Below are positions 5,767-58,657 of a DNA stretch of 64,000 bases, in pieces (within the stretch, counting starts at the first letter, position 1; each line of letters begins with the position of its first letter). The position numbers were made by a program, and so were the translations under genes. Under the pieces are notes generated by a model. The model saw nothing but the letters and a program-made list of their open reading frames with translations. It was not told the DNA's origin and did no database searches. Source of the DNA: Clostridiales bacterium (GTDB taxonomy: Bacteria > Bacillota > Clostridia > Lachnospirales > Lachnospiraceae); contig DUNO01000038.1 of assembly GCA_012839295.1 (NCBI GenBank), forward strand, positions 1-64,000, written 5' to 3'.

Positions 5767-5796
5767 GATCACGCAACAGCGAAAGGAGATATTTTA

Positions 5797-7345: not shown

Positions 7346-8332
7346 ATGAAAACACTTATCAAACATTTATCGAATGATGATGCGAAACTAACTTGTTATA
7401 TCCATGATTACAGCGAGGAAATGCCCACCATAAAGCGACGTCCGGCAGTGCTCATCTTTCCCGGAGGCGGCTATATGATGTGTTCGGACAGGGAGGCCGA
7501 TCCCGTTGCGCTTTCCTATCTTTCGCTTGGGTACAATGCCTTTGTCCTTCGCTATACCGTCGGAGCAAAGGCCTCCTGTCAAAAGGCCTTTGACGATGCG
7601 GACGAGGCGATGAAATATCTGCGTGGGAACGACTGGGAACTCCGCATTGACAAAGACAAAATAGCGGTCGTGGGTTTTTCCGCCGGCGGACACTTGGCAG
7701 CATGGGTGTCTGTTCTTGGGGAAGAAAAACCTAATGCAGCCATCTTAGGATATCCTTGCACCATCGCAGAGAGTGGGAAAATGCTGGGCAAGGAATTTCC
7801 AGAGCTTATTGCGAATGTGGATAGTGCCACACCTCCAACGTTTCTTTTTGCTGCATGTGATGACAAGGTCGTACCTATTGAGCATTCGATTAAATATATG
7901 GAGGCTCTTGATAAGGCAAAGGTGAGCTTTGAGGCACATATTTTTGCGGGTGGAGGACATGGGTTCTCTTTGGCCAAGCCCCTCACGGCAGCAGGATATT
8001 CTTCCTATGTTAACCGCGACACAGCCAGGTGGTTTGACCTTAGCGCCGCATGGTTAACGAATCAATTTGGTGATTTTGAGGTAAGTAATGAGGCGCCGCC
8101 TGTAAAGATACTAGACAGCAATACACCTCTTGGACAGGTGATGGACAACAGCGAAGTTTACGCAAAATTCTTAGAATTTTTCCCGGCTTTGGACATAATG
8201 GTGAAGCAGGCTGTAGAAAAGGGCCAGGGGGATTTGGTGATGAGCATGTCTCTGCGATCCGCAGCCTCGGTTCAGCCACAGATGTTTGCAAAGAGTCAAT
8301 TGGATGCACTTGATGAGGCACTGGCGAATTGA
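7346..8332 (+). CDS. Alpha/beta-hydrolase esterase with an extra ~70-residue C-terminal domain
   Basis: This 328-residue protein has an acetyl-esterase-like alpha/beta-hydrolase fold (about 1-235). The oxyanion loop is FPGGGYMM, the nucleophile is S112 in GFSAGGH, the acid is D172 or D173 in CDDKVVP, and the histidine is H205 in GGGHGF. It probably deacetylates imported oligosaccharides. I placed the start at ATG 7346 because GAAAGGGA precedes it and the preceding gene stops at 7326. The tail from about residue 253 (SNTPLGQVMDN ... SMSLRSAASV) is not part of the hydrolase fold. It resembles the two free-standing small proteins at 43643 and 45635, so it looks like a portable helical module. 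The exact ester substrate is unknown. Confidence 0.8.
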   Translation: MKTLIKHLSNDDAKLTCYIHDYSEEMPTIKRRPAVLIFPGGGYMMCSDREADPVALSYLSLGYNAFVLRYTVGAKASCQKAFDDADEAMKYLRGNDWELRIDKDKIAVVGFSAGGHLAAWVSVLGEEKPNAAILGYPCTIAESGKMLGKEFPELIANVDSATPPTFLFAACDDKVVPIEHSIKYMEALDKAKVSFEAHIFAGGGHGFSLAKPLTAAGYSSYVNRDTARWFDLSAAWLTNQFGDFEVSNEAPPVKILDSNTPLGQVMDNSEVYAKFLEFFPALDIMVKQAVEKGQGDLVMSMSLRSAASVQPQMFAKSQLDALDEALAN

Positions 8333-12402: not shown

Positions 12403-15096
12403 ATGAATTTTAAAGTTAAAAAGCTGATAAATGATAAAGGGGATAATTATATTTTCCCGTTTCTATGGCTGCACGGCGAAGAGGAAGATGTCTTAAGAAG
12501 ATATATGCAGGCAATCGATGAAAATAATATTAAAGCAGTCTGCATTGAAAGCAGGCCGCACCCGGATTACTGCGGACCTAAATGGTGGCAGGACATGGAT
12601 GTAATACTTGATGAGGCCAAAAAACTTAATATGAAGGTTTGGATTTTAGATGACAGCCATTTTCCTACCGGATATGCCAATGGTGCTATGGCAGGCCAAC
12701 CAGATGAGAGATGCCGTCAAAGCATCTGCTGCCGGATATATGAATGTGCCGGGGGCGAAAAATTACGGGTCGAAAAGGAGGAGCTGCTGCATCCGGAGCC
12801 TTTTCAACCATCTTATATCGAAAATTATATGATTGATCAAATTGTATCACGGGTATTTGACGATGATAAACTGTTGGGTATCGTTGCAGTGCGCATCGAT
12901 GAGGATAAGAATGGCTTCGCTAATGAACCATATCGTATTGATCTGTCAGATAAAGTCAGGGATGATACCTTGACTTGGGAAGCACCAGAGGGGGAATGGC
13001 GGATCTATGCCTTGCATTTGTCCCGGAACCTTGGATTTCATCGTAACTATATCAACATGATGGATAAGGAATCCTGCAAAGTTTTAATTGACGCCGTTTA
13101 TGAGCCCCATTATGCACATTATAAAGAGGAGTTCGGTAAAACAATCGCCGGGTTCTTTTCCGATGAGCCAGAGCTTGGAAACGGGCACCTTTATGAACAA
13201 GGTAACGTTTTTGGATTAAAGGGTGATTTTCCATGGAGCTTGGAATTGGAGGAGGTACTACGGAAGCAATATGGGGATGAGCTGATATTCAAACTGCCTT
13301 TATTATGGGAAGAAGAAGCTGATGACGATAAAAAGGCAGAAGTCCGCTATTCTTATATGAACTCTGTAACCAGATTGGTAGAAGAGGATTTTTCATTTCA
13401 AATTGGTATCTGGTGCAGGGGACATGGTGTGCAGTACGTTGGCCATGTGATAGAAGATAATAACCAGCATGCCAGAACCGGTTCCTCCTTAGGACATTAT
13501 TACCGTGGTCTCGCCGGTCAGGATATGGCTGGAATCGATGACATTGGTGGCCAAGTATTGCCCCAAGGTGAAGAGTTGGATAAAAATGACGGAATTTTTG
13601 ACAGAAGGATAGGTGAATTTTATCATTACATGCTGGGAAAACTGGCAAATTCAGCTGCTGCGATAGAACCACTGAAAAAGGGCAACTCCATGTGTGAAAT
13701 CTTTGGTGCTTATGGCTGGTCGGAAGGACTGAGACTCGAAAAATACCTCCTGGATCATTTTCTTGTGAGAGGAATTAATCATTACGTGCCACATGCATAT
13801 AGCGCAAAAGCCTATCCTGACCCGGATTGCCCTCCTCACTTTTATGCGGACGGTAATAATCCACAACACCGTCATTTTGGAAAACTGATGGCATACACCA
13901 ACCGTGTCTGCGAGCTGATCAGCGGTGGAAGACATATTGCACCGGTTGCTGTATTGTATCATGGTGAAGGTGAATGGACTGGAACATGCATGTATTCCCA
14001 CAAGGTTGGGCATGTGCTGGCAGATGCCCAGATTGATTATGACTATATTCCACAGGATGTATTTGATCAGGTTGAAGGATTTAAAACAGTCGTAACGAAG
14101 GGGCTTCTGAAAGTGAACACACAGGAATATAAAACTGTTATTGTTCCGAATGTCCAATACATCACAAAGGCTTTTGCCGAATATACAGTTAAGATGGTCA
14201 AGAACGGTATTGAAGTATTATTTGTGGACGGCTTACCCAAAGGCATCTGTAATGTGGAGAATGCTTCCGAAAGTGCGGAATTAATTTCACGGATCCAAAC
14301 CTGTCCGGTGGTTAAACTGAATGAAACAGTACGGATTCTAAAGAATAATAATTGTGCAGATATCACGATTGAACCGGCGGATAATAGAATCCGCTATTAT
14401 CACTATGTACATCAGGATGGATCGTCTGTTTACCTTTTTGTAAATGAAGGCTCAAAACCGTATCAGGGCTTTGTTAAATTCAATGATGCGCCCGGAGGCT
14501 ATATCTATAATGCCTGGGATAATTGTCTTGAAGAAGCCGTTTTCAACGGCAGTGAATTGTCTGTCTATATCGAACCTTATAAGAGCCTGATTTTGGTTAT
14601 GGATTCCTCGATTGAAGATTTAAATGAGGTAAAAGACTTTGTAAGACAGCCGGTAACCATGACCGGAGAGAAGCTTGCTTTTGCCGGTGAATGGAAACGC
14701 AGTCTTTGCAGAAGTATTGATTATCCGAATTTTAGGGATGAGAAGATCATAAGGATACCGGATCATTTGGCAGAGGAGGAACCGGAGTTTTCCGGCTTTG
14801 TTCGTTATGAGAATAATTTTATAGCAGAAGCAGGCAAAAAAACCATAATTGAGATTACGGATGCACATGAAGGAGTAGAAATCTTTGTAAATGGACAAAG
14901 CTTCGACATTCAGATTGTACCAGACTACTTGTTTGACATAACTGCTGCAATTAAGGATGGCGATAATATGCTGGTCATCGAAGTTGCTACTACTCCTGAA
15001 AGAGAAATGGCTAAAGTCCCTAATGCATTTATGCAGATTGTGGAAGCTACTGGATATACGGGTATTACCGGCGATATAAATATATATCAGGGATAA
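12403..15096 (+). CDS. Large GH106-like glycoside hydrolase (putative alpha-L-rhamnosidase)
   Basis: This 897-residue cytoplasmic glycosidase has an N-terminal barrel region with SRPHPD (50-55) and LDDSHFPTGYANGA (82-95), a central acidic motif GFFSDEP (E255), a motif CEIFGAYGWSEG, and a C-terminal galactose-binding-like jelly-roll (about 790-897). The layout and N-terminal pattern resemble GH106 alpha-rhamnosidases and related jelly-roll glycosylhydrolases, but the family match is distant. I chose ATG 12403 with AGAGAGGTAA upstream; a start at 12367 would add 12 unlikely residues. A paralogue lies at 25570, and two fragments of a third copy survive at 41017-41119. It ends the forward run of module 1. 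Confidence 0.6.
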   Translation: MNFKVKKLINDKGDNYIFPFLWLHGEEEDVLRRYMQAIDENNIKAVCIESRPHPDYCGPKWWQDMDVILDEAKKLNMKVWILDDSHFPTGYANGAMAGQPDERCRQSICCRIYECAGGEKLRVEKEELLHPEPFQPSYIENYMIDQIVSRVFDDDKLLGIVAVRIDEDKNGFANEPYRIDLSDKVRDDTLTWEAPEGEWRIYALHLSRNLGFHRNYINMMDKESCKVLIDAVYEPHYAHYKEEFGKTIAGFFSDEPELGNGHLYEQGNVFGLKGDFPWSLELEEVLRKQYGDELIFKLPLLWEEEADDDKKAEVRYSYMNSVTRLVEEDFSFQIGIWCRGHGVQYVGHVIEDNNQHARTGSSLGHYYRGLAGQDMAGIDDIGGQVLPQGEELDKNDGIFDRRIGEFYHYMLGKLANSAAAIEPLKKGNSMCEIFGAYGWSEGLRLEKYLLDHFLVRGINHYVPHAYSAKAYPDPDCPPHFYADGNNPQHRHFGKLMAYTNRVCELISGGRHIAPVAVLYHGEGEWTGTCMYSHKVGHVLADAQIDYDYIPQDVFDQVEGFKTVVTKGLLKVNTQEYKTVIVPNVQYITKAFAEYTVKMVKNGIEVLFVDGLPKGICNVENASESAELISRIQTCPVVKLNETVRILKNNNCADITIEPADNRIRYYHYVHQDGSSVYLFVNEGSKPYQGFVKFNDAPGGYIYNAWDNCLEEAVFNGSELSVYIEPYKSLILVMDSSIEDLNEVKDFVRQPVTMTGEKLAFAGEWKRSLCRSIDYPNFRDEKIIRIPDHLAEEEPEFSGFVRYENNFIAEAGKKTIIEITDAHEGVEIFVNGQSFDIQIVPDYLFDITAAIKDGDNMLVIEVATTPEREMAKVPNAFMQIVEATGYTGITGDINIYQG

Positions 15097-25485: not shown

Positions 25486-25569
25486 ATGGTATCTGGAAGA
25501 CAGTACCGGTTTAAAGAAAATCATCATTTGAATCCGGATGGCAGATTTTATGGAGGAAAGGGAGGCACA

Positions 25570-28155
25570 ATGAATAAACGAGTAATAGAGGTCATGCAGG
25601 GAAGAGGAGAAAATTATATTCTCCCATTTTTATGGCTGCATGGTGCTGAGGAAGAAATGCTTCGCCACTGCATGGAAAAAATAGACAACTGTGGTATTAA
25701 GGCGGTATGCCTGGAGTCACGGCCGCATCCGGATTTCGCTGGACCGCGTTGGTGGCATGACCTGGATATACTGATTGATGAAGCCAAAAAAAGGAATATG
25801 CGGATCTGGATACTGGACGATTCCCATTTTCCTACCGGCTATGCTAATGGAGCAGCAGCGCAAGCTCCGGAACATCTAAAGAGATGGGCGCTGACAGAGC
25901 GGGTGCTCCCTGTGGACGGGCCAGTGAAAGGCTGCAGGTTTGCTGTAGCGACCCGGATGGGATATACTTATATCGATAAAGGTCAGGATATACACAGTGA
26001 ACCTTTCCGGGAAGAGCTGGTGGCGGTGATTGCGGGACGGCGTATCGAAACAGATGGAAAGGTGCAATATACCCAGCTGGAGGATGTTACCGGTCAGGTT
26101 ACGGAGGAGGGCTGGCTTCAGAAAGATTTTCCTGAGGGGACATACAGTCTGTTTACATATACCAAAAGACTGGGTGCAGCAGCCGGGCAGAATGATTATA
26201 TTTCCATGCTGGAGAAGGATTCGGTAAAGATTCTGCTGGATACGGTATATGAGCCGCATTATCAAAGATATAAGGAAGAGTTTGGAAAGACTATAGCCGG
26301 TTTTTTCTCGGATGAGCCGGGTTTTTATAATTTACCAGATACTTTATACGGCTTGGGGCGGATTGGGGATGACATGCCACTTCCCTGGACGGATGATGTG
26401 ACGGTAAAATTTAAAAAACAAACGGCTGACGGGCGGGATTTAGCCATGTTGCCGGGGTTGTTCCACCAATTGGAGGGTCAGGAAAGGCAGGCATGCTATG
26501 CCTATATGGATATTATCACAAAAAAATATCAAGCCAATTTTTCGGATCAGATAGGAAACTGGTGCCGAGAGCACGAGGTAGAATATATTGGGCATGTGCT
26601 GGAGGACGGTCTCTACTCGCAGAACCTTGGTGCCGGGACAGGCCACTACTTCAGGGCTCTTCATGGACAGCATATGGGAGGCATTGATATTGTGCTGAAT
26701 TACCTTCTTCCGGGCAGGGATTATGATAATGGCATATTTACTCATTACGAATTACCGGTTCTCGGTGCCTCCGTTGCCCAGCAGAATGTGTGGATGAAAG
26801 GCAGGAGCATGTGTGAGATATTCGGTGCCTTTGGCTGGTCCGAGGGACTCTCACTGATGAAATGGATGGCCGATCATATGATGGTAAACGGCATTAATTG
26901 GTTTGTTCCACATGCTTTTACGGATAAGGCGTTTCCGGATCCGGATAATCCGCCGCAGTTTTATGCACAGGGTAATGATCCCCAATACAGATACATGCAT
27001 GTGCTGTTTCACTATATGAACCGTATCTGCCATCTGTTTAACGGCGGACAGGCGGCAGTTGATGTGGCGGTTTTCTTCCCGGCGGAGGGAAGCTGGATGG
27101 GAAAAAGCAGAAGCCCCGCATATATTGGCCGGATGTGCCTGCAGCATCAGATTCCCTACCAGATTCTATGCATGGATAATCTGAAACTGGCGGAAGTAAA
27201 AGGTGGAAGGATCTGCATTGGCAATGCGGCCTACCGGTGTCTGGTCGTGGACAGTATAGAATACCTGCCCGCGGAATATCTCGAAATTTTCAAAAACCTG
27301 ATAGAAAAAGGTGCCTGCATCCGGTTTGTCAATGTAGTACCTGCAGGAACGGACGGTAGCCGTATGGAAAGTTGGAGCGCGGTTATGGAGGAGGAGCTAT
27401 TGACACTGTTTCATGACTACCGGATATGCAGACCGGCGGCATTCAGTAAATGGCTGAGATGCTATCGGTATGAGCAGGAGGATGTGACAATTTTGATGTT
27501 TGCCAATTCCTCCATGACGCAGGAGATAGACGTGGCTGTTACACTGCCGGAAGCGGAAAAAACAATCGGTTACGATGCTTTAAATGATGTGATGTTCGTG
27601 CCGGATATGCAGGAGGATGACAGGATGTATCTGCAACTGGATAAGGGAGAATCATTCCTGCTGTTTATGGGCAAAGAAGCGGATCTGACAGCGCTGTCGG
27701 AGTGTGGTAAAGAAATGAAAAGCTGCACGGTGAAGATGACCTGGACAGATATGGAGGGGGAGTACCGGATTTCTCTGGCACCGTATTATGCACAAGAGAC
27801 ATTTGAGCCGTTCGGTACGAAGAAAGTACTGGATGATGTAATAAACTGGAGGAAGGATTTTGCCGGTATCATACGATATGAGACAACCTTTACCGGAAAA
27901 GCAGAGGTATTGAAGTTGGAGCACTGTTACGGACCGGCAGAAGTGTGTGTCAACGGACAGTCTTGCGGCGTGCGTATTGCGTATCCGTATATCTTTGATA
28001 TTAGCAGTTGTACATCAGATGGAGAAAACCGGTTGCGGATCGAGGTGGCAACGACACTTGGTGAAGTGCTAAAGGATCCCATGTCTCTGGAGCGTGCCAT
28101 GGAACCAGTAGGTATCCTGGGAACATTGAAGTTGGGAAAAAGGCAGAGTAACTAA
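25570..28155 (+). CDS. Large GH106-like glycoside hydrolase, second paralogue
   Basis: This 861-residue paralogue of the 12403 protein shares SRPHPD (50-55), LDDSHFPTGYANGA (82-95), GFFSDEP (E249), CEIFGAFGWSEG and the C-terminal jelly-roll with the motif VCVNGQSCG. The strong conservation of these blocks between the two copies marks them as probable active-site elements. I placed the start at ATG 25570 with AAGGGAGG upstream; the open frame back to 25486 lacks a ribosome site. It lies downstream of an ABC importer, whereas the first copy travels with an MFS carrier. This suggests the two copies act on differently imported oligosaccharides. Alpha-L-rhamnosidase is the best guess, with moderate support. 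Confidence 0.6.
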   Translation: MNKRVIEVMQGRGENYILPFLWLHGAEEEMLRHCMEKIDNCGIKAVCLESRPHPDFAGPRWWHDLDILIDEAKKRNMRIWILDDSHFPTGYANGAAAQAPEHLKRWALTERVLPVDGPVKGCRFAVATRMGYTYIDKGQDIHSEPFREELVAVIAGRRIETDGKVQYTQLEDVTGQVTEEGWLQKDFPEGTYSLFTYTKRLGAAAGQNDYISMLEKDSVKILLDTVYEPHYQRYKEEFGKTIAGFFSDEPGFYNLPDTLYGLGRIGDDMPLPWTDDVTVKFKKQTADGRDLAMLPGLFHQLEGQERQACYAYMDIITKKYQANFSDQIGNWCREHEVEYIGHVLEDGLYSQNLGAGTGHYFRALHGQHMGGIDIVLNYLLPGRDYDNGIFTHYELPVLGASVAQQNVWMKGRSMCEIFGAFGWSEGLSLMKWMADHMMVNGINWFVPHAFTDKAFPDPDNPPQFYAQGNDPQYRYMHVLFHYMNRICHLFNGGQAAVDVAVFFPAEGSWMGKSRSPAYIGRMCLQHQIPYQILCMDNLKLAEVKGGRICIGNAAYRCLVVDSIEYLPAEYLEIFKNLIEKGACIRFVNVVPAGTDGSRMESWSAVMEEELLTLFHDYRICRPAAFSKWLRCYRYEQEDVTILMFANSSMTQEIDVAVTLPEAEKTIGYDALNDVMFVPDMQEDDRMYLQLDKGESFLLFMGKEADLTALSECGKEMKSCTVKMTWTDMEGEYRISLAPYYAQETFEPFGTKKVLDDVINWRKDFAGIIRYETTFTGKAEVLKLEHCYGPAEVCVNGQSCGVRIAYPYIFDISSCTSDGENRLRIEVATTLGEVLKDPMSLERAMEPVGILGTLKLGKRQSN

Positions 28156-31526: not shown

Positions 31527-33689
31527 ATGAATTGGAAGGCTAAATGGATAACGGCACATGATGGGAACAGCGATATTTGCCCGGTATTTCGCTGCAGATG
31601 GGATACATTAAAACCGATAGCAAAAGCGGAACTGGTATTGACTGCCCTCGGGGTCTACGAGGCGTGCCTGAATGGAAAGCGGGTTAGCAATTATGTTCTG
31701 GCACCTGGCTGGACTGCTTATGAAAAAAGACTGCAGTACCAAAGCTATGATATTACCGGTTTGCTGGCTGCTGAAAATGAACTGTTAGTTACAGTAGGAA
31801 AGGGATGGTACTCTTCCCGTATGCCAGGTGAGACAAATATTAAAGATATGGAGCGCCGGATGGCAAGGCCGAGAGGGCTGCTTGGGGAAATCAGATTATT
31901 ATTTGCAGATGGCACACAAAAAACGATAGCTACTGGCACCGGATGGGAATATGGTGAAAGTCCTGTAAGATTTAGTGAAATTTATGACGGCGAGGCATAT
32001 GATGCTTCCTTTATAACACAAGAATGGAAAGCTTGCAAACTTTTAAAGCAATCAAATGAAATTCTTATACCCCAGGAGGGTGAAATAATCCGTGAGCATG
32101 AGATCGTATATGCAAAGTCGGTATTTACCACACCTGCAGGGGAAACCGTGGTAGATTTTGGTCAGGAAGTAACCGGATATGCAGAGTTTACCATTGATGC
32201 CAAGTTCGGTGACAAGGTAAAGATATTGCACGGCGAAGTCCTTGATAAGGATGGGAATTTCTATAATGCAAACTATCGGAGTGCAAAGGCTGAGATAAAT
32301 TATATATGCTGTGATGGGATACAGACTTGGCATCCGAGACTGACGTTTTTTGGTTTCCGGTATTTAAAGCTTGTGGAATTTCCGGGCATTGCTTTGCCTG
32401 AGCAATTCAAAGCAATCGCGGTGTATTCAGACATATTAAAAACAGGCCAATTAAAGTGCTCCGATGATGGTTTAAACCAGCTTTTTTCTAATATTTTCTG
32501 GAGCCAAAAGGGTAATTTTTTGGACGTTCCTACAGATTGCCCTCAAAGAGATGAGCGGCTGGGCTGGACAGGGGATGCGCAGGTTTTTGCCAAGGCTGCT
32601 TGTTATAACTACGATGTGGAAACATTTTATATAAAATGGTTAAATGATTTGCGTATGTCACAAAGGGAAAACGGTGGAATACCTACGGTTATTCCGGATT
32701 ATCTGCCGGAATTTGAGCCCAGTGCGGCTTGGGGGGATGCCTCTGCTATCATGCCCTGGCAATTGTATATGACATATGGGAATGTCCAAATTTTACGAAA
32801 CCAATTTGACAGCATGAAAAAATGGGTGGACTACATAACAAACTGTACCAATCATCCCTTTCTTTGGACAGGAGGCGTGCACCTTGGGGATTGGCTGGGA
32901 TTAGACGCACCTTCCGGCAGCTTTAAAGGTTCCAGTAGGGACGACTTCATTGCAACCGTGTATTATGCCAATTCTACCAGATTATTGGCTAAGACAGGTC
33001 GAATTTTAAATGAAGATATTACGGAATATGAAGAACTCTATCAAAATATAGTAAAGACCTTTAGAAAAACATATACTGAATATCAAACAGAAACAGAGTA
33101 TGTATTAGCGATATGGTTTGGTCTGGAAGCTAACCCCGAAGAGGCGGCAGATAAACTGGCAAAGATAATCAAAGAAGATGGGTACAAGCTGCGCACGGGA
33201 TTCCTCGGGACTGCTTATGTGTTACATGTACTAAGTAAATATGGACATACAAAACTGGCATATACATTGCTGCTGCGAAAGGAATATCCGTCTTGGCTTT
33301 TTTCTGTAGGTAAAGGCGCAACGACCATTTGGGAGCATTGGGATGGCATCATGGAGGATGGGAGTTTTTGGAGTACGGATATGAATTCATTTAACCATTA
33401 CGCTTATGGGGCTGTAGCTGATTGGGTATACGAACAGGCAGCGGGAATACAGCCGGTTGAAGATGCACCCGGATTTGTCAAAGTGCGGATTGCACCCAAA
33501 CCTGACACGAGGCTTCATTGGTTGAAAGCATCCTTTCGGACCCGCCATGGACGAATTGTTTCCAAATGGGAATGCAAAGAGGATGCCATAAAGTACGAGC
33601 TGACAACCCCTGTTCCAGCATATGTGATAATTGATGGCAAGGAGGCTGAAGTTGGACCGGGTTCTTATATCTTTTGGGGGAATATTTAA
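31527..33689 (+). CDS. GH78 alpha-L-rhamnosidase
   Basis: This 720-residue GH78 enzyme has two N-terminal beta-sandwich domains (about 1-300), an (alpha/alpha)6 barrel (about 305-630) and a C-terminal beta-sandwich. The acid is E343 in CPQRDERLGWTGD and the second catalytic glutamate is E603 in TTIWEHWDG. It lacks the extra N-terminal domain present in the longer paralogue at 56021. It has no signal peptide, so it should cleave alpha-L-rhamnose from oligosaccharides brought in by the adjacent ABC importer. GGAGGCGG precedes the start. Confidence 0.92.
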   Translation: MNWKAKWITAHDGNSDICPVFRCRWDTLKPIAKAELVLTALGVYEACLNGKRVSNYVLAPGWTAYEKRLQYQSYDITGLLAAENELLVTVGKGWYSSRMPGETNIKDMERRMARPRGLLGEIRLLFADGTQKTIATGTGWEYGESPVRFSEIYDGEAYDASFITQEWKACKLLKQSNEILIPQEGEIIREHEIVYAKSVFTTPAGETVVDFGQEVTGYAEFTIDAKFGDKVKILHGEVLDKDGNFYNANYRSAKAEINYICCDGIQTWHPRLTFFGFRYLKLVEFPGIALPEQFKAIAVYSDILKTGQLKCSDDGLNQLFSNIFWSQKGNFLDVPTDCPQRDERLGWTGDAQVFAKAACYNYDVETFYIKWLNDLRMSQRENGGIPTVIPDYLPEFEPSAAWGDASAIMPWQLYMTYGNVQILRNQFDSMKKWVDYITNCTNHPFLWTGGVHLGDWLGLDAPSGSFKGSSRDDFIATVYYANSTRLLAKTGRILNEDITEYEELYQNIVKTFRKTYTEYQTETEYVLAIWFGLEANPEEAADKLAKIIKEDGYKLRTGFLGTAYVLHVLSKYGHTKLAYTLLLRKEYPSWLFSVGKGATTIWEHWDGIMEDGSFWSTDMNSFNHYAYGAVADWVYEQAAGIQPVEDAPGFVKVRIAPKPDTRLHWLKASFRTRHGRIVSKWECKEDAIKYELTTPVPAYVIIDGKEAEVGPGSYIFWGNI

Positions 33690-39421: not shown

Positions 39422-40948
39422 ATGATAAACTATACACTTGACTATAAGTCATCGGTGAAACCCTTGCCGCATTTCTGGGAAACCTGTGTCGGGAGCAGTT
39501 TTGCGGTGTCGGCTCTACATGAAGATTACAGAACGCACTTGACAAAATGCGTGAGAGAACTCGGCTTCAAGTATGTACGTTTTCACGGCATATTTGACGA
39601 TGATATGGGATTGCTTTGTATCGCCGATGAAAATGAAATTGACTTTGATAAGAAATTTATGTTATCTTTCGAGAAAGTTGATTCGGTTTTTGATTTTCTT
39701 CTGTCAATTGGAGTTCGTCCATATGTTGAATTCTGTTTTATGCCGGAAGTCCTGGCCTCGGGTACGACAACGATTTTCGATAACAGAAAGACTTCGCCGC
39801 CAAAAGATTATGACGCTTGGCAGTGGCTTTGCGAACGTTTTACGTCGCACTGCGTAGAGCGTTATGGTTTAGGCGAAGTCCGGCAGTGGTTTTTCGAGGT
39901 GTGGAACGAGCCGAATATTGGCGGGGTGGGTCAGCCGATGGGCTTCTGGGGCGGAACACAAGAAGAATACTTTAAGTTATATAAGTATGCTACACTCGGT
40001 GTAAAAAATGTTGATAGCCGCCTTCGAACCGGTGGTCCGGCGACATCAACAAACGCCTGGATTCCGGAGTTCGTCGGTTATAGCAGGGAGAACAGCGTGC
40101 CTGTTGATTTTGTCGCGACGCATCATTATCCAACTGATGATGTTATCGGGCTTGCGTTGGAAAAGCTGATAAGCGTGGGTGAGCAGGTAAAAGCGGGTAA
40201 AACAGATCCGGAACTTATGGCACAGTATATGCAAGAGTTTCAGGATACAAAAGAGAATGCTTGGGAACGTGTTCCGCGAGGCGCACTGACGGAAATGACA
40301 AAACGGGCGATCAAAGAAGCCGACGGGCTGCCTGTGTATTATACCGAGTGGAACAGTTGGGCCGGACTGTCATCTGATGGTCCCTTCGGAGCGTCTTTTG
40401 CTGCAAAAACGATTATGGACACTGTCGGGCTTGTTGACCTTTATTGCTACTGGCATTTTTCCGATGTCACGGAGGACTCACAGGAGAAAGAATTTTACGG
40501 CGGAATGGGTTTACTAACAAAGCATGGCGTACCGAAAGCAACGTATCGTGGGTTTGAGCTATTGCACGAACTTGGCAGTGAAATGTACGCTGAAGTTTTT
40601 AATCAAAATACAATAGATATCTATTCCGTCAAAAAGCCTGAAGCACACGCAGTACAACTCCTCGTAATCAATCACCAATCGCTGAATCAGGAGATTAATG
40701 ACGAGACGATAGACATTGAAATTACAGGCCTGCCGTCGTTTACAAAAGCCGAGATAAAGCGGATAGACGAGAACAATGGCAATGCTTTGAAATTCTTTGA
40801 AAATAATGATGCTTGCGAAATTAGTGAACTCATTGAGATTAGCAAACTTAAAACAGAGCCAGTAAATGTTAAGTTCAGCAATGGCAATGCAAAGTTTGTG
40901 CTTGATTTACCGAAACAGGGAATTGCGCTTGTAACGATATATTATTAA
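39422..40948 (+). CDS. GH39 beta-xylosidase-like glycosidase (copy 1)
   Basis: This 508-residue GH39 enzyme has a TIM barrel (about 1-390) and a C-terminal beta-sandwich (about 395-508). The acid/base is E163 in FEVWNEPN and the nucleophile is E309 in YYTEWNSW, both conserved. It lacks a signal peptide. GH39 members mostly hydrolyse beta-xylosides, and some act on other sugars. It starts with AGGAGG. Two more GH39 genes follow at 43939 and 45916 in the same orientation, which points to local duplication. Its GC content seems a little higher than that of the other two. Confidence 0.88.
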   Translation: MINYTLDYKSSVKPLPHFWETCVGSSFAVSALHEDYRTHLTKCVRELGFKYVRFHGIFDDDMGLLCIADENEIDFDKKFMLSFEKVDSVFDFLLSIGVRPYVEFCFMPEVLASGTTTIFDNRKTSPPKDYDAWQWLCERFTSHCVERYGLGEVRQWFFEVWNEPNIGGVGQPMGFWGGTQEEYFKLYKYATLGVKNVDSRLRTGGPATSTNAWIPEFVGYSRENSVPVDFVATHHYPTDDVIGLALEKLISVGEQVKAGKTDPELMAQYMQEFQDTKENAWERVPRGALTEMTKRAIKEADGLPVYYTEWNSWAGLSSDGPFGASFAAKTIMDTVGLVDLYCYWHFSDVTEDSQEKEFYGGMGLLTKHGVPKATYRGFELLHELGSEMYAEVFNQNTIDIYSVKKPEAHAVQLLVINHQSLNQEINDETIDIEITGLPSFTKAEIKRIDENNGNALKFFENNDACEISELIEISKLKTEPVNVKFSNGNAKFVLDLPKQGIALVTIYY

Positions 40949-43348: not shown

Positions 43349-43642
43349 GTGTTTTAAATAATACCCTTGATTTTATAGCTGAAATCGAGGGTAATATTTT
43401 GCATTAATTTAACTTTTTATGGATTAAGTTGCAAAAAATTTGCCTTATATATAAAAAACCAAAATATGTATAAAACTAGATGTTGTTTATATGCTATAGT
43501 TCATTTACAAAGAATGTTAATCTCTTTGAAATAAGTGGCAAAGATTAAGTGCAATACTGGCATTTATTTGAGCCGTAATTCAGAAGAAAGGAGAGAGCAT
43601 GAATATTCAGTTCTGAATATATCGATGCCGAAGGATATAGTA
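43349..43642 (+). other. Spacer with terminator and leader of the first small-domain gene
   Basis: It holds the hairpin at 43362-43393. An AT-rich stretch follows, with TTGTTT (about 43482) and TACAAA 17 bases later as a possible promoter. After that comes a minicistron: GAAAGGAG, then ATG 43599 and a stop after five codons, 27 bases before the 43643 gene. Confidence 0.4.
43362..43398 (+). terminator. Terminator after the AraC relic
   Basis: TACCCTTGATTT pairs with AAATCGAGGGTA (12 bp including one G-T), followed by ATATTTT. Confidence 0.65.
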
Positions 43643-43855
43643 ATGTTTAATGAAAATTCAAAAATTGGAGATCTATTAAAAAATGAGGCTGCAAAGGCAG
43701 TTATAGAAAAACATTTGCCCAAACTAGCAACAACTCCACGGTTAAGCATGGCTAAAATGTTTACCCTGAAAGACCTAGTATCGTTTCCGCAGGTAGGAAT
43801 ATCCCAGGAGCAGTTGGAGATTTGTTGTAATGCTTTAGCCGAAATACAGGAATAG
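43643..43855 (+). CDS. Small orphan helical-domain protein (copy 1)
   Basis: This 70-residue protein starts MFNENSKIGDLLKNEAAKAV, continues with PRLSMAKMFTLKDL, and has no signal peptide or membrane segment. It is similar along its whole length to the 71-residue protein at 45635 and, more weakly, to the C-terminal tail of the esterase at 7346. Each free copy directly precedes a GH39 gene (84 bases here). I chose ATG 43643 because it matches the start of the paralogue and AAGGA lies 7 bases upstream; the open frame extends back to 43535. The function is unknown. A small helical accessory module for binding or oligomerisation is an inference. It resembles DUF1858-type folds only loosely. Confidence 0.65.
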   Translation: MFNENSKIGDLLKNEAAKAVIEKHLPKLATTPRLSMAKMFTLKDLVSFPQVGISQEQLEICCNALAEIQE

Positions 43856-43938
43856 TCCTATGTAAAAATTTATTCAGTAGTTGGTTAATTATACATTTAT
43901 AGTTTTATGAATAAAAATTGTCCATCCAGGAGGTAAAG

Positions 43939-45531
43939 ATGAAATTTAATATTGCAAAAAACACTCTATTAAAAGCTTTTAATAAACACCAGCAATTTTG
44001 TGTTGGTAGTTGTCACGCATTTATGGCGCTGCGTACAGATTATATACACCAGTTAAAAACGGTGCATGACGAACTCGGTATAAAATATGTTCGTTTTCAC
44101 GGTATATTTAATGATGATATGAATACTATTTGTGATTTTACGAATATTTTCCCTATTCCAGGTGGAGAACGTTTTAGGGAGATATCTTTTCACCGGTGTG
44201 GAATAGCCTTTGATAATATACTGTCTATCGGTATGAAACCGTTTATAGAGCTAGGGTTTATGCCATCGCAACTTGCGAATGCTCCTGTCCAGGGAAATAT
44301 GACGTTTTATGGGAGCAATGTCAATTTACCGAAAGATTATGATGAATGGGCAGGATATATTCAAGAGTTTATCAGATATTTAATTCATCGTTATGGTGAA
44401 AAAGAAGTATTAGAATGGTATTTTGAAGTTTGGAATGAACCAGACTTAAAGGGAGTATTTTTTAATGATACAAAACAAGATTATTTTAAGCTGTATGAGG
44501 CTACAGTGAATGCAATTAAGAGAGTACATAGCGGTTTGCGTGTAGGAGGGCCGTCTACAAGCGGAAGTAAGTGGATACAATCCTTTATTACCTATTGTAA
44601 GGAGAATAAATTACCACTAGATTTCGTTTCCACTCATCAGTATGCTGGAGATCCCCTTATTGGGGTAACTGATGCTGGTGATCCTGATTTGGAAGGAGCA
44701 GAAGTCAGTTTTGATAAATCGGGTTTTTTAAAAATTGGTGAGCTATTTGAAAAATTGCCCGAAGATACAAAATGTCTTGACATATTAAGGATGATATTCT
44801 CTGACCCTACGGAGACAAAGGATTTACATGAAAATCTGTTTAGGAAAAATGCAATGATTGCAAAAAAGCAGAGCGATGGTCTGCCGCTTTTATACACGGA
44901 ATGGAATTTATGCGCGTCTTTCTCGGCAATATCCAACGATACACGTAAAGCTGCCGCTTATCTCATTAAAACATCACTTGATATCGAGGATTATGTAGAT
45001 GGTTCTGCGGTTTGGTGTTTTAGTGATATATTTGAGGAACTGCATCAATTTACACAGGAATTTCATGGAGGGTTTGGGTTACAAACGCTGAATGGAATCC
45101 CGAAGCCCAGCTTCTATGCACTTAAAATGCTAGCTATGGTTGGCGGTAATCGACTGGATCTAGGGGCTGAAAGTACAGATGGAGAAATTGGAATCGCCGC
45201 ATTTTCTGACGAAAATACAAAGCAAGTGCTGTTGTTCCGACATAAAATGAAGCAACTCAGCTTGCCTAAGGTGACTGCGACAGTATCTTTTGAGCTTAAT
45301 AAAAGACCAGCCGGTGTTACTTTATATCGTATTGATGATACTCATTGCAATCCATACCAGCTCTGGCTAGATGAGGGGAGTCCATCAGATTTGACACCGT
45401 CAGAAATAGAGGAATATAAAGAAAAGACTTCGATGAAGAAGGAAAAGATAGAATTTAGCTATGAAAATGGTGTTATGGCTTTCGATGCTATGCTAGGAGT
45501 AAATGATATCTGGCTAATATGTATTGAATAA
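43939..45531 (+). CDS. GH39 beta-xylosidase-like glycosidase (copy 2)
   Basis: This 530-residue GH39 enzyme has the acid/base E167 in FEVWNEPD and the nucleophile E321 in LLYTEWNL. The barrel spans about 1-400, followed by a C-terminal beta-sandwich with a charged insertion near the end. I chose ATG 43939 with CCAGGAGG upstream. It is preceded by the 70-residue orphan protein and followed by a second orphan protein and a third GH39. The N-terminal pocket residues (VGSCHAFMALRTDY) are shared with copy 3 more than with copy 1. Confidence 0.87.
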   Translation: MKFNIAKNTLLKAFNKHQQFCVGSCHAFMALRTDYIHQLKTVHDELGIKYVRFHGIFNDDMNTICDFTNIFPIPGGERFREISFHRCGIAFDNILSIGMKPFIELGFMPSQLANAPVQGNMTFYGSNVNLPKDYDEWAGYIQEFIRYLIHRYGEKEVLEWYFEVWNEPDLKGVFFNDTKQDYFKLYEATVNAIKRVHSGLRVGGPSTSGSKWIQSFITYCKENKLPLDFVSTHQYAGDPLIGVTDAGDPDLEGAEVSFDKSGFLKIGELFEKLPEDTKCLDILRMIFSDPTETKDLHENLFRKNAMIAKKQSDGLPLLYTEWNLCASFSAISNDTRKAAAYLIKTSLDIEDYVDGSAVWCFSDIFEELHQFTQEFHGGFGLQTLNGIPKPSFYALKMLAMVGGNRLDLGAESTDGEIGIAAFSDENTKQVLLFRHKMKQLSLPKVTATVSFELNKRPAGVTLYRIDDTHCNPYQLWLDEGSPSDLTPSEIEEYKEKTSMKKEKIEFSYENGVMAFDAMLGVNDIWLICIE

Positions 45532-45634
45532 ATATGCTGATTAATATCCTCAGCTTTTAGCGTTATTAACAATCACGAATAAAAAGAAAGGAAAAGTATG
45601 AGTATTGGTTTTCATCTGTCATACAGGGGGATTT

Positions 45635-45850
45635 ATGGAATTCAATGAGAACTCAAAGATAAGTGAATTGATAAGTAACGAAGCAGCAAAAAGCGTTATG
45701 AATAAGCATTTCTCTGGATTGATGTTGAACCCAAGGTTCAGTATGGCAAAAGCATTGACTTTGAAAGAGCTGGCGGCTTATCCGCGAGCGCATATTTCTG
45801 GGGAGCAACTAAAGGCCTGTTGTGAAGATTTGGAAAAAATTCATCAATAA
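45635..45850 (+). CDS. Small orphan helical-domain protein (copy 2)
   Basis: This 71-residue paralogue of the 43643 protein shares FNENSKI, NEAAK, PRFSMAK, TLKEL, and ISxEQL near the C-terminus. The ribosome site AGGGGGA precedes ATG 45635. An upstream 16-codon minicistron (ATG 45598, with AAAGGA before it) overlaps this start and stops at 45646-45648, which suggests translational coupling. GH39 copy 3 follows 65 bases later. The repeated order orphan-then-GH39 is unlikely to be chance. Function unknown. Confidence 0.65.
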   Translation: MEFNENSKISELISNEAAKSVMNKHFSGLMLNPRFSMAKALTLKELAAYPRAHISGEQLKACCEDLEKIHQ

Positions 45851-45915: not shown

Positions 45916-47067
45916 ATGATTAATTTTACAATTGATACAAATGATAAGACAGAATTTCCTCATTATTGGGAAAACTGCGTAGGTAGTTGCCATGCATATA
46001 CAGCTCTGAGGGAGGATTACAGGAAACAGCTGAAAAAGGCACATGAAGAATTGGGCTTCCGGTCAGTTAGATTCCATGGATTATTCAATGATAATATGAG
46101 TGTTTGCTCCCAGCAAAGTTCATCTGATCCTTCTTCTGTGGATAATTTGGCCTATAATTTTGCGAATATTGATAATATTTTTGATTTTTTGCTTAGTATA
46201 GGGATGAAACCATTTGTAGAGATTGGAGACATGCCCGGATGTCTGGCCTCAGGGGATGAAACATTTTTTAATTATAAAATGAATATAACACCTCCGACTG
46301 ATTATGGTAAATGGAATGATTTTATTTATACTTTTATTGAGCATTTGGGTGACCGATATGGAAGGCAAGAGATAACAAGCTGGCTTTTTGAAGTTTGGAA
46401 CGAACCAAACATGGCTATTTTCTGGACAGGAACAAAGGATCAATACTTTGAGTTGTATAAAAATACTGTTAAAGCAATTAAGGCATACGACAGCCAGCTG
46501 AAAGTTGGGGGGCCGGCCACTTCATGTAATGCCTGGATTCCAGACCTGATTCAGTTTTGCAAGGAGAATAAACTCCCTTTAGATTTTATTACAACGCATC
46601 ATTATCCTTCGGACGAACAGCTATGGGAAAAAGGAGAGTTTGATTTCAGTGATGTAATGGCAATTGTGCTCAGCGGGGAAAAAAGTAAATTTGGTCGGGA
46701 TATTATGAAAAAAATGGCGTTTAAGGCACATGAGCAAGCTGGGAATTATCCTTTGTATTATACAGAGTGGAATCCATCGTCCATGATAATTGATGATATA
46801 CATGATGAATGTTATTCTGCGTCTATGACAGCGAAAATATTATCGGATAATGACGGTTTGGTAGATGGGTATTCGTTTTGGACCTTCAGCGATATCTTCG
46901 AGGAATGCGGCCAAAAGGCTGGGGTATTTTACGGTGGGTTATGTGGGCATTGGGATTGTATAGAAACTGGCGAAGAAGCAGAAAAGAATACCTTGTCTTC
47001 AAAATCATGGTTAAATGCATATGAGAAATATAAAAACAAGGGAGTTCCAAGCCTTAGTAAGTATTAG
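45916..47067 (+). CDS. GH39 glycosidase lacking its C-terminal domain (copy 3)
   Basis: This 383-residue GH39-type barrel has the acid/base E163 in FEVWNEPN and the nucleophile E284 in YYTEWNPS intact. After the motif VFYGG (about residue 340) the similarity to copies 1 and 2 stops. About 40 unrelated residues, ending GVPSLSKY, replace the C-terminal beta-sandwich of 110-130 residues. DNA after the stop contains fragments of other glycosidase genes, so the end was probably created by a deletion. The barrel may fold, but activity is uncertain. GGGAGG precedes ATG 45916. Confidence 0.7.
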   Translation: MINFTIDTNDKTEFPHYWENCVGSCHAYTALREDYRKQLKKAHEELGFRSVRFHGLFNDNMSVCSQQSSSDPSSVDNLAYNFANIDNIFDFLLSIGMKPFVEIGDMPGCLASGDETFFNYKMNITPPTDYGKWNDFIYTFIEHLGDRYGRQEITSWLFEVWNEPNMAIFWTGTKDQYFELYKNTVKAIKAYDSQLKVGGPATSCNAWIPDLIQFCKENKLPLDFITTHHYPSDEQLWEKGEFDFSDVMAIVLSGEKSKFGRDIMKKMAFKAHEQAGNYPLYYTEWNPSSMIIDDIHDECYSASMTAKILSDNDGLVDGYSFWTFSDIFEECGQKAGVFYGGLCGHWDCIETGEEAEKNTLSSKSWLNAYEKYKNKGVPSLSKY

Positions 47068-53202: not shown

Positions 53203-54681
53203 TTATGCGAAAGGATTCTCAGTCTTATACAGCATCCCCTCAGGCTGGTTAAATCCGATATCAGTTACGCCGAGATAGCGGAACAGGTTGAATAAGGATT
53301 TCCCAAAATGGCCGAAGGCAACAGCACCATGGTGTGGATAATTCTTCTCAATTAATACATGGCGGTAGAAGCGTCCCATTTCTGGAATTGCAAATACGCC
53401 AATGGAACCAAAGGAGCGGGTTGCAACGGGAAGGACCTCGCCCTCCGCAACATAAGCCTTCAGCTGTGCATCAGCAGTGCTCTGGAGACGGAAGAAGGTG
53501 ATCTCACCGGGGATGATATCACCCTCTAAGGTGCCGCGGGTGATGTTAGGCTCCTGGTCAGGCTCTAACGCCCTTGCCATAATCTTCTGGTATTTCATGG
53601 AGGAGCTGCCCAGCTTACAGGCTGCTGTATTGCCGCAGTGGAAGCCCATGAAGGTATCCTTGAGGGTATAATTGAACTTGCCCTTAATTTCGGATGCATA
53701 CATATCGGCAGGAACCGTATTGTTAATATCAAGCAGGGTAACGGTATCCTCGCTGATGCAGGTTCCGATGTACTCGCTTAAGGCACCGTAGATATCTACC
53801 TCACAGGAAACCGGGATTCCCCGGGCTGCCAAACGGCCATTGACATAGCATGGGACGAAGCCGAACTGTGTCTGGAAGGCAGGCCAGCATTTATTGGCGA
53901 AGGTTACAAACTCACGGGAACCTTTATGGTCTCTCGCCCAATCAAGCAGGGTAAGCTCATACTGGGCCAGCTTAGGAAGAATGCCGGGCATCTTATTTCC
54001 CTCCCCCAGCTCCTCCTCCATGTCCTTGATAACCTCAGGGATACGGGGGTCATTTACATGGTCGTTAAAGGCTGCGAATAAATCAAGCTCTGAATTCTCC
54101 TCGATCTCAACGCCTAAATTGTAAAGCTGCTTGATCGGGGCGTTGCAGGCAAGGAAGTCCTGGGGACGTGGTCCGAAGGAGATGATCTTTAGGTTATTCA
54201 GGGCAATCACGGTTCTTGCAAGGGGAAGGAACTCCTGGATCATATCAGCGACTTCCGTTGCAGTACCGACCGGGTATTCCGGGATATAAGCCTTGATTTC
54301 ACGGAGCTTCAGGTTATAGCTTGCGTTGAGCATGCCGCAGTAGGCATCGCCCCTGCCGTCCATCAGGTCATCGCCGCTTTCTTCGGCAGCAGCTACAAAC
54401 ATGGCCGGGCCGTCAAATAATTTTGCCAGCAGGGTCTCTGAGGTTTCAGGACCAAAGTTTCCAAGATATACGACAAGGGCGTTACATCCGGCTTCCTTTA
54501 CATCTGCTAAAGCCTTGGTCATATGTATCTCATTTTCCACAGTTACGGGACATTCATAAATCTCCCCGTAGCTTTTCTTATAGGCAGCTACGACGGCATG
54601 TCTTCTTCTTTCTGACAGCTCCATCGGGAAGCAGTCACGGCTTACGGCAACGATGCCGAGCTTTACGGTAGGCATATTCAT
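53203..54681 (-). CDS. L-fucose/L-arabinose isomerase-family protein
   Basis: This 492-residue protein has the FucI/AraA-superfamily fold: an N-terminal substrate-binding Rossmann-like domain (MNMPTVKLGIVAVSRD), a middle domain with CGMLNASYNL, and a metal-centre C-terminal part (GFHCGNTAACKLGSSS; GAVAFGHFGKS). The family converts aldoses and ketoses such as L-fucose or L-arabinose. The exact sugar is not shown. It is the only central sugar-isomerisation enzyme in the window. It has its own strong promoter on the minus strand and AGGAGG before its start. It seems transcriptionally separate from the AraC gene at 54776. Confidence 0.75.
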   Translation of the reverse strand: MNMPTVKLGIVAVSRDCFPMELSERRRHAVVAAYKKSYGEIYECPVTVENEIHMTKALADVKEAGCNALVVYLGNFGPETSETLLAKLFDGPAMFVAAAEESGDDLMDGRGDAYCGMLNASYNLKLREIKAYIPEYPVGTATEVADMIQEFLPLARTVIALNNLKIISFGPRPQDFLACNAPIKQLYNLGVEIEENSELDLFAAFNDHVNDPRIPEVIKDMEEELGEGNKMPGILPKLAQYELTLLDWARDHKGSREFVTFANKCWPAFQTQFGFVPCYVNGRLAARGIPVSCEVDIYGALSEYIGTCISEDTVTLLDINNTVPADMYASEIKGKFNYTLKDTFMGFHCGNTAACKLGSSSMKYQKIMARALEPDQEPNITRGTLEGDIIPGEITFFRLQSTADAQLKAYVAEGEVLPVATRSFGSIGVFAIPEMGRFYRHVLIEKNYPHHGAVAFGHFGKSLFNLFRYLGVTDIGFNQPEGMLYKTENPFA

Positions 54682-55962: not shown

Positions 55963-56020
55963 TAATATAATATATGTTTTGCAGGAGAGCAAGATTATTT
56001 TGTAATAGATGGAGGCGGAT

Positions 56021-58657
56021 ATGATGAAATTAATAAAATTGCAATGCCAAAACCGCAGCATGCCCATAGGAATCGGGGCGCAGCCCTATTTCTCCTGGGT
56101 GCTGGAAAGTGATGACTCCGAGGTTATCCAAGTAACCTATCATATTGTGGTAAAGGAAGCCCAGGCAGTAGTGTGGGATTCCGGCCTTGTACATAGCCCT
56201 AAGTCGGCCTATGTTGAATATGCCGGTGAGGCCTTAAAGAGCTGCACCTCCTACACCTGGCAGGTTACTGTCCAGGATAACCATCAAAATACAAGCACAG
56301 AAGCTTCCGTATTTGAGACGGGAATCCTATCTCCTAGGGATTGGAAGGCCCGGTGGGTGATCTCGCCGCTGTATAAGAAGCCTGTAAAAAAAGTGAAGCC
56401 TGCAGTGCAGTTTCGTAAAGCGTTCCAATTAGAAAGGAGGGTTATCAGAGCCCGTGTTTATGCTACCTGCCATGGTATCTACCGGCTGTCTGTTAACGGG
56501 GCACGTCCGGATGACAGGGAGATGGCTCCGGAATTTACCGTATATGAAAAAAGCCTGTGCGTACAGGCCTATGATGTAACATCCCTGCTGCAAACCGGTG
56601 ATAATGTATTAGGTATGGAGGTGGCTGACGGCTGGTACAGGGGAGGAACGACGAAGCAGACCTATCCTGGCTGGGATCCAAGCCTTGCCTGCTTATGGCA
56701 GCTCGTAGTTACCTATGAGGATGATACACAGGAAATTATATGCTCTGATGCTGATATAAAGGTTGGAACTGGCGCAATTACCTCCTCCGATCTGTTTCAC
56801 GGAGAAAGCTATGATGACAACCTGGCTCAAAAGGGCTGGGATACTCCTGACTTTAATGCTTCCTCATGGCAGCAGGCCGAGCTCGGCAGCTTTGGTTATG
56901 AAGCGCTTATCCCACAAGAGGGAGAACCGGTCCGCCCGGTGCTGATCTTGCCGGTAAAGAAAATCATTACCACTCCAAAGGGTGAGACGGTGCTGGATTT
57001 TGGGCAGAATATGGCCGGAAGGCTGAGGGCAGCGATCAACCTGCCAAAAGGTGCAACGGCTACCTTTGAGCACAGCGAGACCTTGGATAAGGAGGGCAAC
57101 TATTTCAATAATATCCAGGGCATTAACCAGAAGGACAGCTTCACCTCCTCAGGCCGGCCGGCCTTGTTTGAGCCTGCATTTACCTTCCATGGCTTTCGCT
57201 ACGTACGTGTAACCGGAATCCCACAGGTTCATAAAGAGGATTTTACTGCGGTGGTGCTGTCTACGGATGAGGCCTGGATTAGTACCTTCGAGTGCTCTGA
57301 TGCGAGGATTAACCGTCTTGTAGAAAATACGCGCTGGAGCCAGCGCTCCAATATGCTCTCCGTCCCGACGGATTGTCCCCAGCGTGAAAAAATGGGCTGG
57401 ACAGGTGACATGACCGTATATGCAAGGACAGCTTTTATGAACCAGAACCTGACGGGTCTAGTGACCCGTTGGCTGGAAAGCGTGGCCTATGTACAGCTGC
57501 CCGACGGCCAGGTTCCCAACGTTGCTCCATGGCCGGATTTCTATAAGATGGTTTCCAAGCTCACCAACGTCCTGCTGGGAGGCTCCTTTAAGGATATCGG
57601 CTCCAGCGGCTGGGGGGATGCTTCCGCCGCCGTTCCTTGGGAACTATATGTGGCGACGGGGAATACAGCAATTTTGAGAAAGCAGTATGAGTCCATGAAG
57701 GCATGGGTTGAATATATGCGCCGTCAGGCCGCTGCTAAGCGTCCGAAAAAGGGAGCGCTACCGGAGGATATGGAGCAGTATCTATGGGATACGGGCTTCC
57801 ATTTTGGGGAGTGGCTGATTCCAAGCGCCACCAAGCACGGAAGCATGTCCGCCGCTGTGCGCAAGAGCGCAAAGGCAGGCCGCTATTACATTGCGCCGGT
57901 ATATTTTTATACCTCTTGTAGGACATTAGCGGATACAGCCCACATACTTGGTAAGGTGGAGGATGCAAAAGCTTATGGTGAACTGGCGGTAAAGATCAAG
58001 GCCGCTTACCAGGCGAGCATGGTACTGCCGGATGGGCGACTAAAGATAGATGTACAGGGGGCATATGCTTTAGCCCTTGGAGCAGGCCTGATCCCGGAGC
58101 ATCTCCGTAAAAAGGCAGCGGCAAGGCTAGCCAAGCTGATCCACCAGAATGATGACAGGCTTGATACAGGCTTCCTGCCTACCCCCTTCCTCTTGGATGC
58201 GCTATCTGACAATGGCTATGCTTCTCTTGCCTATACCCTGCTGCGGCAGGATCAGCGGCCCAGCTGGATGTTCGAGGTGGAGAAGGGGGCAACTACCATT
58301 TGGGAGAATTGGAATTGCGAGGATGCAAAAGGAAATGTGCAGACGATTTCTATGAACCACTATGCCTTTGGCTGTGTGGCAGACTGGATTTACCGAAAGA
58401 TTGGCGGCATTGTGCGCACCGGCGTCGGCTATAGCGAGTTCCGTATCCAGCCCCAGCCAGATAGTGGGCTGGCCTGGGGAAAGCAAAGCTATAATTCTCC
58501 GAATGGCAGGATTGTGAGCGAGTGGCGCCAGGAAAATGGCAGGTTTTACTTACATGCTGAAATACCCTGCAATACTAGGGCAGTAATCATTCTCCCGGAT
58601 GGGCAAACCTATCCTGTTGGAAGCGGAGCCTATGACTATAGCTGCGACATACTCTAG
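56021..58657 (+). CDS. GH78 alpha-L-rhamnosidase (longer paralogue)
   Basis: This 878-residue GH78 enzyme has an extra N-terminal beta-sandwich (about 1-105) before the two sandwich domains found in the 31527 protein, then an (alpha/alpha)6 barrel (about 420-790) and a C-terminal sandwich. The acid is E456 in DCPQREKMGWTGD and the second catalytic glutamate is E762 in TTIWENWN. No signal peptide. Start ATG 56021 (or 56024) follows GGAGG. The first GH78 travels with an ABC importer, but this one lies beside a GPH carrier and an AraC regulator, so the two probably process different rhamnosides. A broken esterase gene follows directly. Confidence 0.92.
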   Translation: MMKLIKLQCQNRSMPIGIGAQPYFSWVLESDDSEVIQVTYHIVVKEAQAVVWDSGLVHSPKSAYVEYAGEALKSCTSYTWQVTVQDNHQNTSTEASVFETGILSPRDWKARWVISPLYKKPVKKVKPAVQFRKAFQLERRVIRARVYATCHGIYRLSVNGARPDDREMAPEFTVYEKSLCVQAYDVTSLLQTGDNVLGMEVADGWYRGGTTKQTYPGWDPSLACLWQLVVTYEDDTQEIICSDADIKVGTGAITSSDLFHGESYDDNLAQKGWDTPDFNASSWQQAELGSFGYEALIPQEGEPVRPVLILPVKKIITTPKGETVLDFGQNMAGRLRAAINLPKGATATFEHSETLDKEGNYFNNIQGINQKDSFTSSGRPALFEPAFTFHGFRYVRVTGIPQVHKEDFTAVVLSTDEAWISTFECSDARINRLVENTRWSQRSNMLSVPTDCPQREKMGWTGDMTVYARTAFMNQNLTGLVTRWLESVAYVQLPDGQVPNVAPWPDFYKMVSKLTNVLLGGSFKDIGSSGWGDASAAVPWELYVATGNTAILRKQYESMKAWVEYMRRQAAAKRPKKGALPEDMEQYLWDTGFHFGEWLIPSATKHGSMSAAVRKSAKAGRYYIAPVYFYTSCRTLADTAHILGKVEDAKAYGELAVKIKAAYQASMVLPDGRLKIDVQGAYALALGAGLIPEHLRKKAAARLAKLIHQNDDRLDTGFLPTPFLLDALSDNGYASLAYTLLRQDQRPSWMFEVEKGATTIWENWNCEDAKGNVQTISMNHYAFGCVADWIYRKIGGIVRTGVGYSEFRIQPQPDSGLAWGKQSYNSPNGRIVSEWRQENGRFYLHAEIPCNTRAVIILPDGQTYPVGSGAYDYSCDIL

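Follow-up and report, generated by a model that had tools for sequence, protein, structure and literature searches.

Two small free-standing proteins and the C-terminal tail of an esterase, all encoded in the 64,000-nucleotide stretch of Clostridiales DNA analysed here (the window), belong to one module family. By sequence comparison, this module matches the C-terminal domain (CTD) of the FMN-binding gut beta-glucuronidases (GUS) and the C-terminal ends of two GH3 enzymes whose structures are solved. Our preferred reading, to which we assign a probability of about 40%, is that the module is a portable six-helix cap for handling the aglycone; when fused it would lie beside the active-site mouth of its host, and the free copies would form a separate subunit for the adjacent GH39 glycosidase.

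Copy 1 (43643..43855, plus strand, 70 aa) and copy 2 (45635..45850, plus strand, 71 aa) are paralogues with 54% identity, and the motifs NEAAK, PR-SMAK, TLK-L and IS-EQL, by which an earlier note on the sequence had recognised the pair, were all found in both. The start sites are supported by Shine-Dalgarno-like sequences (GAAGGA for copy 1, GGGGG for copy 2). Over 69 codons, the two genes differ at 22 first, 16 second and 46 third positions, and because the substitutions are mostly at third positions, the free copies are constrained at the protein level. Tiny ORFs of 5 and 16 codons (43599-43616 and 45598-45648), each with its own Shine-Dalgarno-like sequence, precede the free modules, and the 16-codon ORF overlaps the start of copy 2. 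The AlphaFold2 model of copy 1 (50 sequences) is all-helical, consisting of six helices, with a mean pLDDT of 82 and a pTM of 0.63. The esterase starts with an alpha/beta-hydrolase catalytic domain (7346..8104, plus strand; BD-FAE/Abhydrolase_3 in Pfam), of which the closest solved relative is MGS-M1 (4q3k, E 1.8e-93). The module (8105..8332, plus strand; residues 254-328) is located past this domain, whose end is near residue 241 in that relative. The tail is 21% identical to the free copies, a likeness that is weak by eye; its AlphaFold model places helices at residues 263-328, with a block pLDDT of 81-86 from residue 271 on, and gives a six-helix run like that of the free copy.

For the relationship among the three, a jackknife profile was prepared from 128 modules, leaving out the window copies and their near copies, although window copies had been part of the profiles by which the family itself was originally gathered. 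When the 308 ORFs of the window were searched, this profile matched copy 1 (E 3.1e-24), copy 2 (7e-20) and the esterase (1.4e-7), while the best of 1848 decoys reached E 2.6. One further window ORF at 7.7 is noise, and no module was found in the window ORFs beyond these three. Thus the tail is the same module as the free copies, as had been proposed, and the profile search that had been suggested for further copies returned many, both free and fused. The tail was also matched at 3.3e-6 by a profile of GH2, GH3 and GH78 modules only (best decoy 3.4). Two sub-profiles were at variance with the rest: a profile of SDR modules only did not list it, and with a profile of the modules of other esterases its E value of 0.5 was no better than the decoys. 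Against Pfam-A and NCBIfam, the free copies matched no family above the curated cut-off, the one Pfam match being RPAP3_C (E 0.14, under its cut-off), and two further modules likewise gave nothing above cut-off in Pfam. Neither dockerin nor any other known docking domain was matched in the window copies by Pfam. The statement that the module falls into no named family therefore holds for Pfam and NCBIfam but not for the printed literature, where it appears as the CTD of the FMN-binding beta-glucuronidases; our search, confined to papers open without subscription, returned none in which the module is recognisably treated as a single family.

Each free copy lies immediately upstream of a GH39 gene, as the earlier note had stated. 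Copy 1 is followed after 83 nt (module stop to GH39 ATG) by the gene at 43939..45531 (plus strand; PF01229 1.5e-93; Shine-Dalgarno GGAGG), and copy 2 after 65 nt by the gene at 45916..47067 (plus strand; PF01229 1.3e-94; GGAGG before the ATG). A further GH39 gene of the locus (39422..40948, plus strand; PF01229 1.4e-90) has no module before it. The product of 45916-47067 has 383 aa against 508 and 530 for the other two, with a C-terminus shorter by about 125-150 residues in the alignment, and a search of the other frames found no continuation. The window also holds four rhamnosidase-like genes without the module (12367-15096, 25486-28155, 31527-33689 and 56009-58657; two match GH106 and two GH78), and a fucose-isomerase-like gene at 53203-54681.

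We consider it very improbable that the two free copies are relics of a deleted host whose C-terminal module once preceded GH39. There are five other loci where the gene ending directly before a GH39 gene bears the module, namely a GH78 (L394), three GH2 (L305-L307, with marginal module matches of E 0.005-0.026) and a GH3 (L343), with host types assigned by BLAST. However, no remnant of a host is seen upstream of the window copies, they have their own start sites and codon-level constraint, and they resemble the SDR-type (N-terminal) modules rather than those of GH2, GH3 and GH78.

The association with GH39 was also evaluated across genomes. Modules are present in all 12 genomes that have a GH39 closely related to those of the window (E<1e-130) and in 33 of 282 others; the 12 are other genomes of the order sample, the window genome being left out, and the counts come from two overlapping, non-identical samples (295 and 246 genomes). 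Nine of the 12 belong to one family (f8) and are thus phylogenetically non-independent, so that the p value of 4e-11 overstates the case. In genomes with more distant GH39s, modules were found in 2 of 16. No GH39 ORF with a fused module was found in 60 GH39 loci, most of which are distant relatives; of the five loci with a module-bearing gene before GH39, L305-L307 and L343 belong to these 60 and L394 was an additional one.

Free copies elsewhere have more varied surroundings. We kept 16 intact ones (the two of the window, L065, L066, L068, L140, L157 and L384-L392, where those of L389 and L390 are near-identical). A glycosidase is next door in three, i.e. GH39 twice in the window and a GH2-module gene in L140; three lie beside another carbohydrate enzyme (polysaccharide deacetylase in L384 and L391, polysaccharide lyase 8 in L386) and two beside an SDR gene (L065 and L385). 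For the other eight (L066, L068, L157, L387, L388, L389, L390 and L392), no glycosidase, carbohydrate enzyme or SDR was found among the neighbours scanned, which were only some of them. Their neighbours are AgrB, tRNA editing with a response regulator, serine dehydratase, a tRNA synthetase-like protein, LiaF, DUF436 with a recombinase, and POR. The claim that the module is always with glycan enzymes therefore does not hold for the free copies; two of the three glycosidase neighbours are those of the window itself. At the class level, many free copies seem to form a sequence type of their own. In L384 and L391, from two genomes of genus g579, the gene order is a polysaccharide deacetylase, the free module, a DHODB-like Fe-S protein and a protein of 461/462 aa, the last being a Fer4_20/pyridine nucleotide oxidoreductase by Pfam in L384. 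The eight copies beside unrelated genes are what one would expect if the free module were a small regulator or ligand sensor acting independently of the neighbouring enzyme; the two GH39 pairs in the window and the predominance of enzyme fusions elsewhere make this quite improbable.

The fused hosts were then counted in a census of 151 module ORFs with distinct module strings, labelled by BLAST to references and nearly all checked with Pfam, where the sampling was steered by the queries and above all by an SDR-led scan. The hosts were GH78 (40), GH3 (33), GH3-module-module-SDR (3), GH2 (15), GH43 (4), apiosidase-like (6), esterase (13), SDR (24) and a STAS-APH kinase (1), with 11 entries free or cut (one of them, in L116, is a cut copy of a GH3 tail that is itself in the list) and one unassigned. 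The 139 fused ORFs hence comprise 101 glycosidases, 13 esterases, 24 SDRs and one kinase. The latter (L077, 5770-7290), a STAS domain and an APH-type kinase with a C-terminal module, is the only such host seen. The earlier view that the module is free in one place and fused in another agrees with these numbers. The fused copies are mainly on enzymes of glycans and glycosides, with SDRs and a kinase as further hosts, and most free copies elsewhere have no glycosidase beside them. The module is C-terminal in GH3, GH78, esterases and most GH2, and N-terminal in most SDRs and in 4 of the 6 apiosidase-like proteins. Across the different hosts, most modules share 17-33% identity with copy 1, and the nearest neighbour of a module is of the same host class in 131 of 152 cases (shuffled mean 27, maximum 45).

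With regard to distribution, 46 of the 295 genomes sampled in the order have the module by a 12-sequence profile (E<=0.01); later profiles gave 32 of 321 for the class, 13 of 398 sampled across the phylum and 51 of 197 for the family holding Paenibacillus and Cohnella (that of G738). Profiles and cut-offs differ between the samples, so these figures are not mutually comparable; the order, phylum and class samples include the window's own genome while the 197-genome family sample does not. In that family, 30 of the 51 positive genomes have a single match, with a profile that undercounts. The window's own genome has 13 module places. Its contig C16 carries a 56-aa module copy directly followed by a GH3_C/Fn3-like fragment (L069, 6889-7508), perhaps a broken GH3 locus. 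With the narrower profile A5, no match at 0.001 was obtained in any of the 33 genus mates; the module is nonetheless carried by at least two (G011 and G021; L011 and L015), on GH78-like and GH3-like ORFs.

Several module-bearing genes may occur in one operon. For example, four such genes stand in a row in Paenibacillus nanensis (L161), namely GH78-module, esterase-module, GH3-module and module-SDR, and in P. soyae (L160) and Cohnella thailandensis (L162) a natural GH3-module-module-SDR fusion exists; such fusions are listed as L143-L145, L160 and L162 being L143 and L144 taken from named records. Among the best 29 loci of the SDR-led scan (L160-L188), the SDR and the module are in one ORF in 21 and not in 8. 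Around the 21 module-SDR genes, the module is carried by 12 of 14 GH78, 6 of 7 esterase, 6 of 6 GH3 and 1 of 2 GH43 neighbours, and by none of 7 P450 and 2 apiosidase-like neighbours. For all 29 loci, with a length cut-off different from that of the 21-locus count, the corresponding values are 14/16, 6/7, 10/11 and 1/2, with 0/7 for P450 and 0/1 for apiosidase-like. When compared with the best 30 GH78 matches drawn from the family, where the module was found in 7, carriage by GH78 in the 21 module-SDR loci (12 of 14) is significantly higher (Fisher 1.8e-4). In this comparison set, the locus ends before the C-terminus for two of the 30, a single profile at 4e-4 supports one of the 7, and part of the loci are module operons in their own right. 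In L164 and L186, module-SDR is directly followed by a protein of 802-816 aa that matches GH5 weakly and lacks the module. The seven P450-like genes without the module near module-SDR (that of L175 at 4761-5948, the one checked with Pfam, and six others) hint at catabolism of terpenoid or flavonoid glycosides, and the combination of GH78, esterase, GH3 and SDR hosts with nearby P450 genes looks like a glycoside-plus-aglycone pathway.

Such clustering is what would be expected if the modules of neighbouring enzymes docked with each other or with a common partner and so held the pathway together, with the free copies as linkers or competitors. The row of four in P. nanensis, the tandem fusions, the enrichment of module-bearing GH78 together with esterases and GH3 around module-SDR, and the free copies that flank an SDR gene in L065 and L385, when elsewhere SDRs are fused to the module, all argue for docking. 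Nevertheless, we regard it as rather unlikely. Modules of different hosts are divergent and group by host class, P450 and apiosidase-like neighbours have none, many genomes have a single match even allowing for the undercount, and a common substrate accounts for the clustering equally well. With a clearly lower likelihood than capping, the module would serve the whole pathway in common, as carrier or chaperone of the aglycone. The rhamnosidase, glucosidase, esterase and dehydrogenase of a glycoside operon would then each bear their own copy, and the free copies would hand the hydrophobic aglycone on, or offer it, to enzymes that lack the module, GH39 among them.

The choice leans towards capping because of the work on GUS. 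According to PMC8748916 and PMC9377255, the GUS CTD is mobile and not visible in crystals, and it sits just outside the active site in AlphaFold models; removal of the CTD of Rh2GUS by a stop after residue 644 lowered the activity on mycophenolate glucuronide eightfold, and Rh3GUS depends critically on its CTD for triclosan glucuronide. If residue 644 is counted without the tag, the Rh2GUS truncation would remove the module (662-754 in 8ges, taken to be the same enzyme) with a short linker. Docking accounts for the clustering and the tandem fusion, and both readings fit; as the GUS data come from single purified enzymes, without partner enzymes, capping is preferred. The reported mobility of the CTD also speaks against a purely structural role, in which the module would stabilise its host or make it multimeric and have no part in substrate handling. 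Such a role would suit a small, all-helical fold and the tetramer described in PMC3622683 for the Paenibacillus GH3 enzyme PSTG; with free copies in unrelated contexts, we judge it improbable.

The capping reading thus accounts for the GUS deletions, for modules that differ by host, for operons with both glycoside and aglycone steps, and for the pairing of free modules with GH39. The hosts would act on glycosides whose aglycones are small and in many cases bulky or hydrophobic, and the fused module, a mobile cap next to the mouth of the active site, would help to hold or position the aglycone; grouping by host class is expected if modules are tuned to their hosts. For the two window genes, the cap would be made apart from its enzyme, as a small subunit that serves the neighbouring GH39. 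From adjacency, constraint and co-occurrence, we infer this action in trans, as we do the contact with the aglycone. On the other side, SDR and STAS-kinase hosts and attachment at either terminus are odd for an active-site cap, no fused GH39 was found in the 60 loci, and 13 of 16 free copies have no glycosidase among the neighbours scanned. The free form beside GH39 offers a simple test system where the cap can be added or omitted, and the natural GH3-module-module-SDR fusion allows docking to be separated from capping.

Finally, we compare the module with known systems. In Foldseek, the free copy scored best with two GH3 enzymes, 9lql at E 0.1 (probability 0.97) and 7ms2 at E 0.38 (TMq about 0.68-0.69), followed by the small NMR proteins 2k5e and, further down, 2k53. 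Nothing was under E 0.001, so the homology claim rests on sequence and the structure is supportive. The NMR proteins, which we take to be DUF1858-like small helical domains, align over nearly the whole length (TM about 0.53-0.55) with weak E values of 1.3 and 8.3. DUF1858 (PF08984) was rejected, with no Pfam match, hhalign probabilities of 2.4 and 3.8% against 11 DUF1858 sequences, and the CxxC that is invariant in these 11 aligned members absent in that form from the window copies. With the window-led profile A7, the Roseburia GUS 7kgz was matched at its C-terminus (residues 653-732, E 2e-9); for other GUS C-termini the profile gave 7e-4 (6mvg) and a marginal 0.011 (6mvh). A CTD-like module also lies behind a GH2 core in L072 and L140, whereas the window copies are free or on an esterase, with no GH2 and no sign of FMN, and the published CTD has about 150 residues compared with 70-90 for the module. 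For the GH3 beta-glucosidases, the likeness is in sequence (C. thermocellum BglB, 7ms2, 4e-9; PSTG1, 8j9f/9lql, 2e-4) and in fold (best TMq 0.69 and 0.60, Foldseek E 0.1-1.2), while the GH3 type has an insert of about 10-20 residues and the window copies are separate proteins or esterase-borne. The segment in question covers residues 676-754 of 7ms2, and 9lql has heptyl thioglucoside bound. PSTG cleaves sesaminol triglucoside according to PMC3622683, and from its structure title 9lql is probably that enzyme. One family, without a Pfam or NCBIfam model, joins the CTD of drug-reactivating gut GUS, the modules of GH3, GH78, GH43, esterases and SDRs, and free small proteins. Compared with the carbohydrate-binding modules of CAZymes, it differs in being helical, in occurring also on SDRs and a kinase and in having no Pfam CBM match, but it is likewise a portable add-on of many enzyme families; if the carrier reading were true, it would belong to a system for handling plant secondary metabolites as substrates, one that does for small molecules what carbohydrate-binding modules do for glycans.
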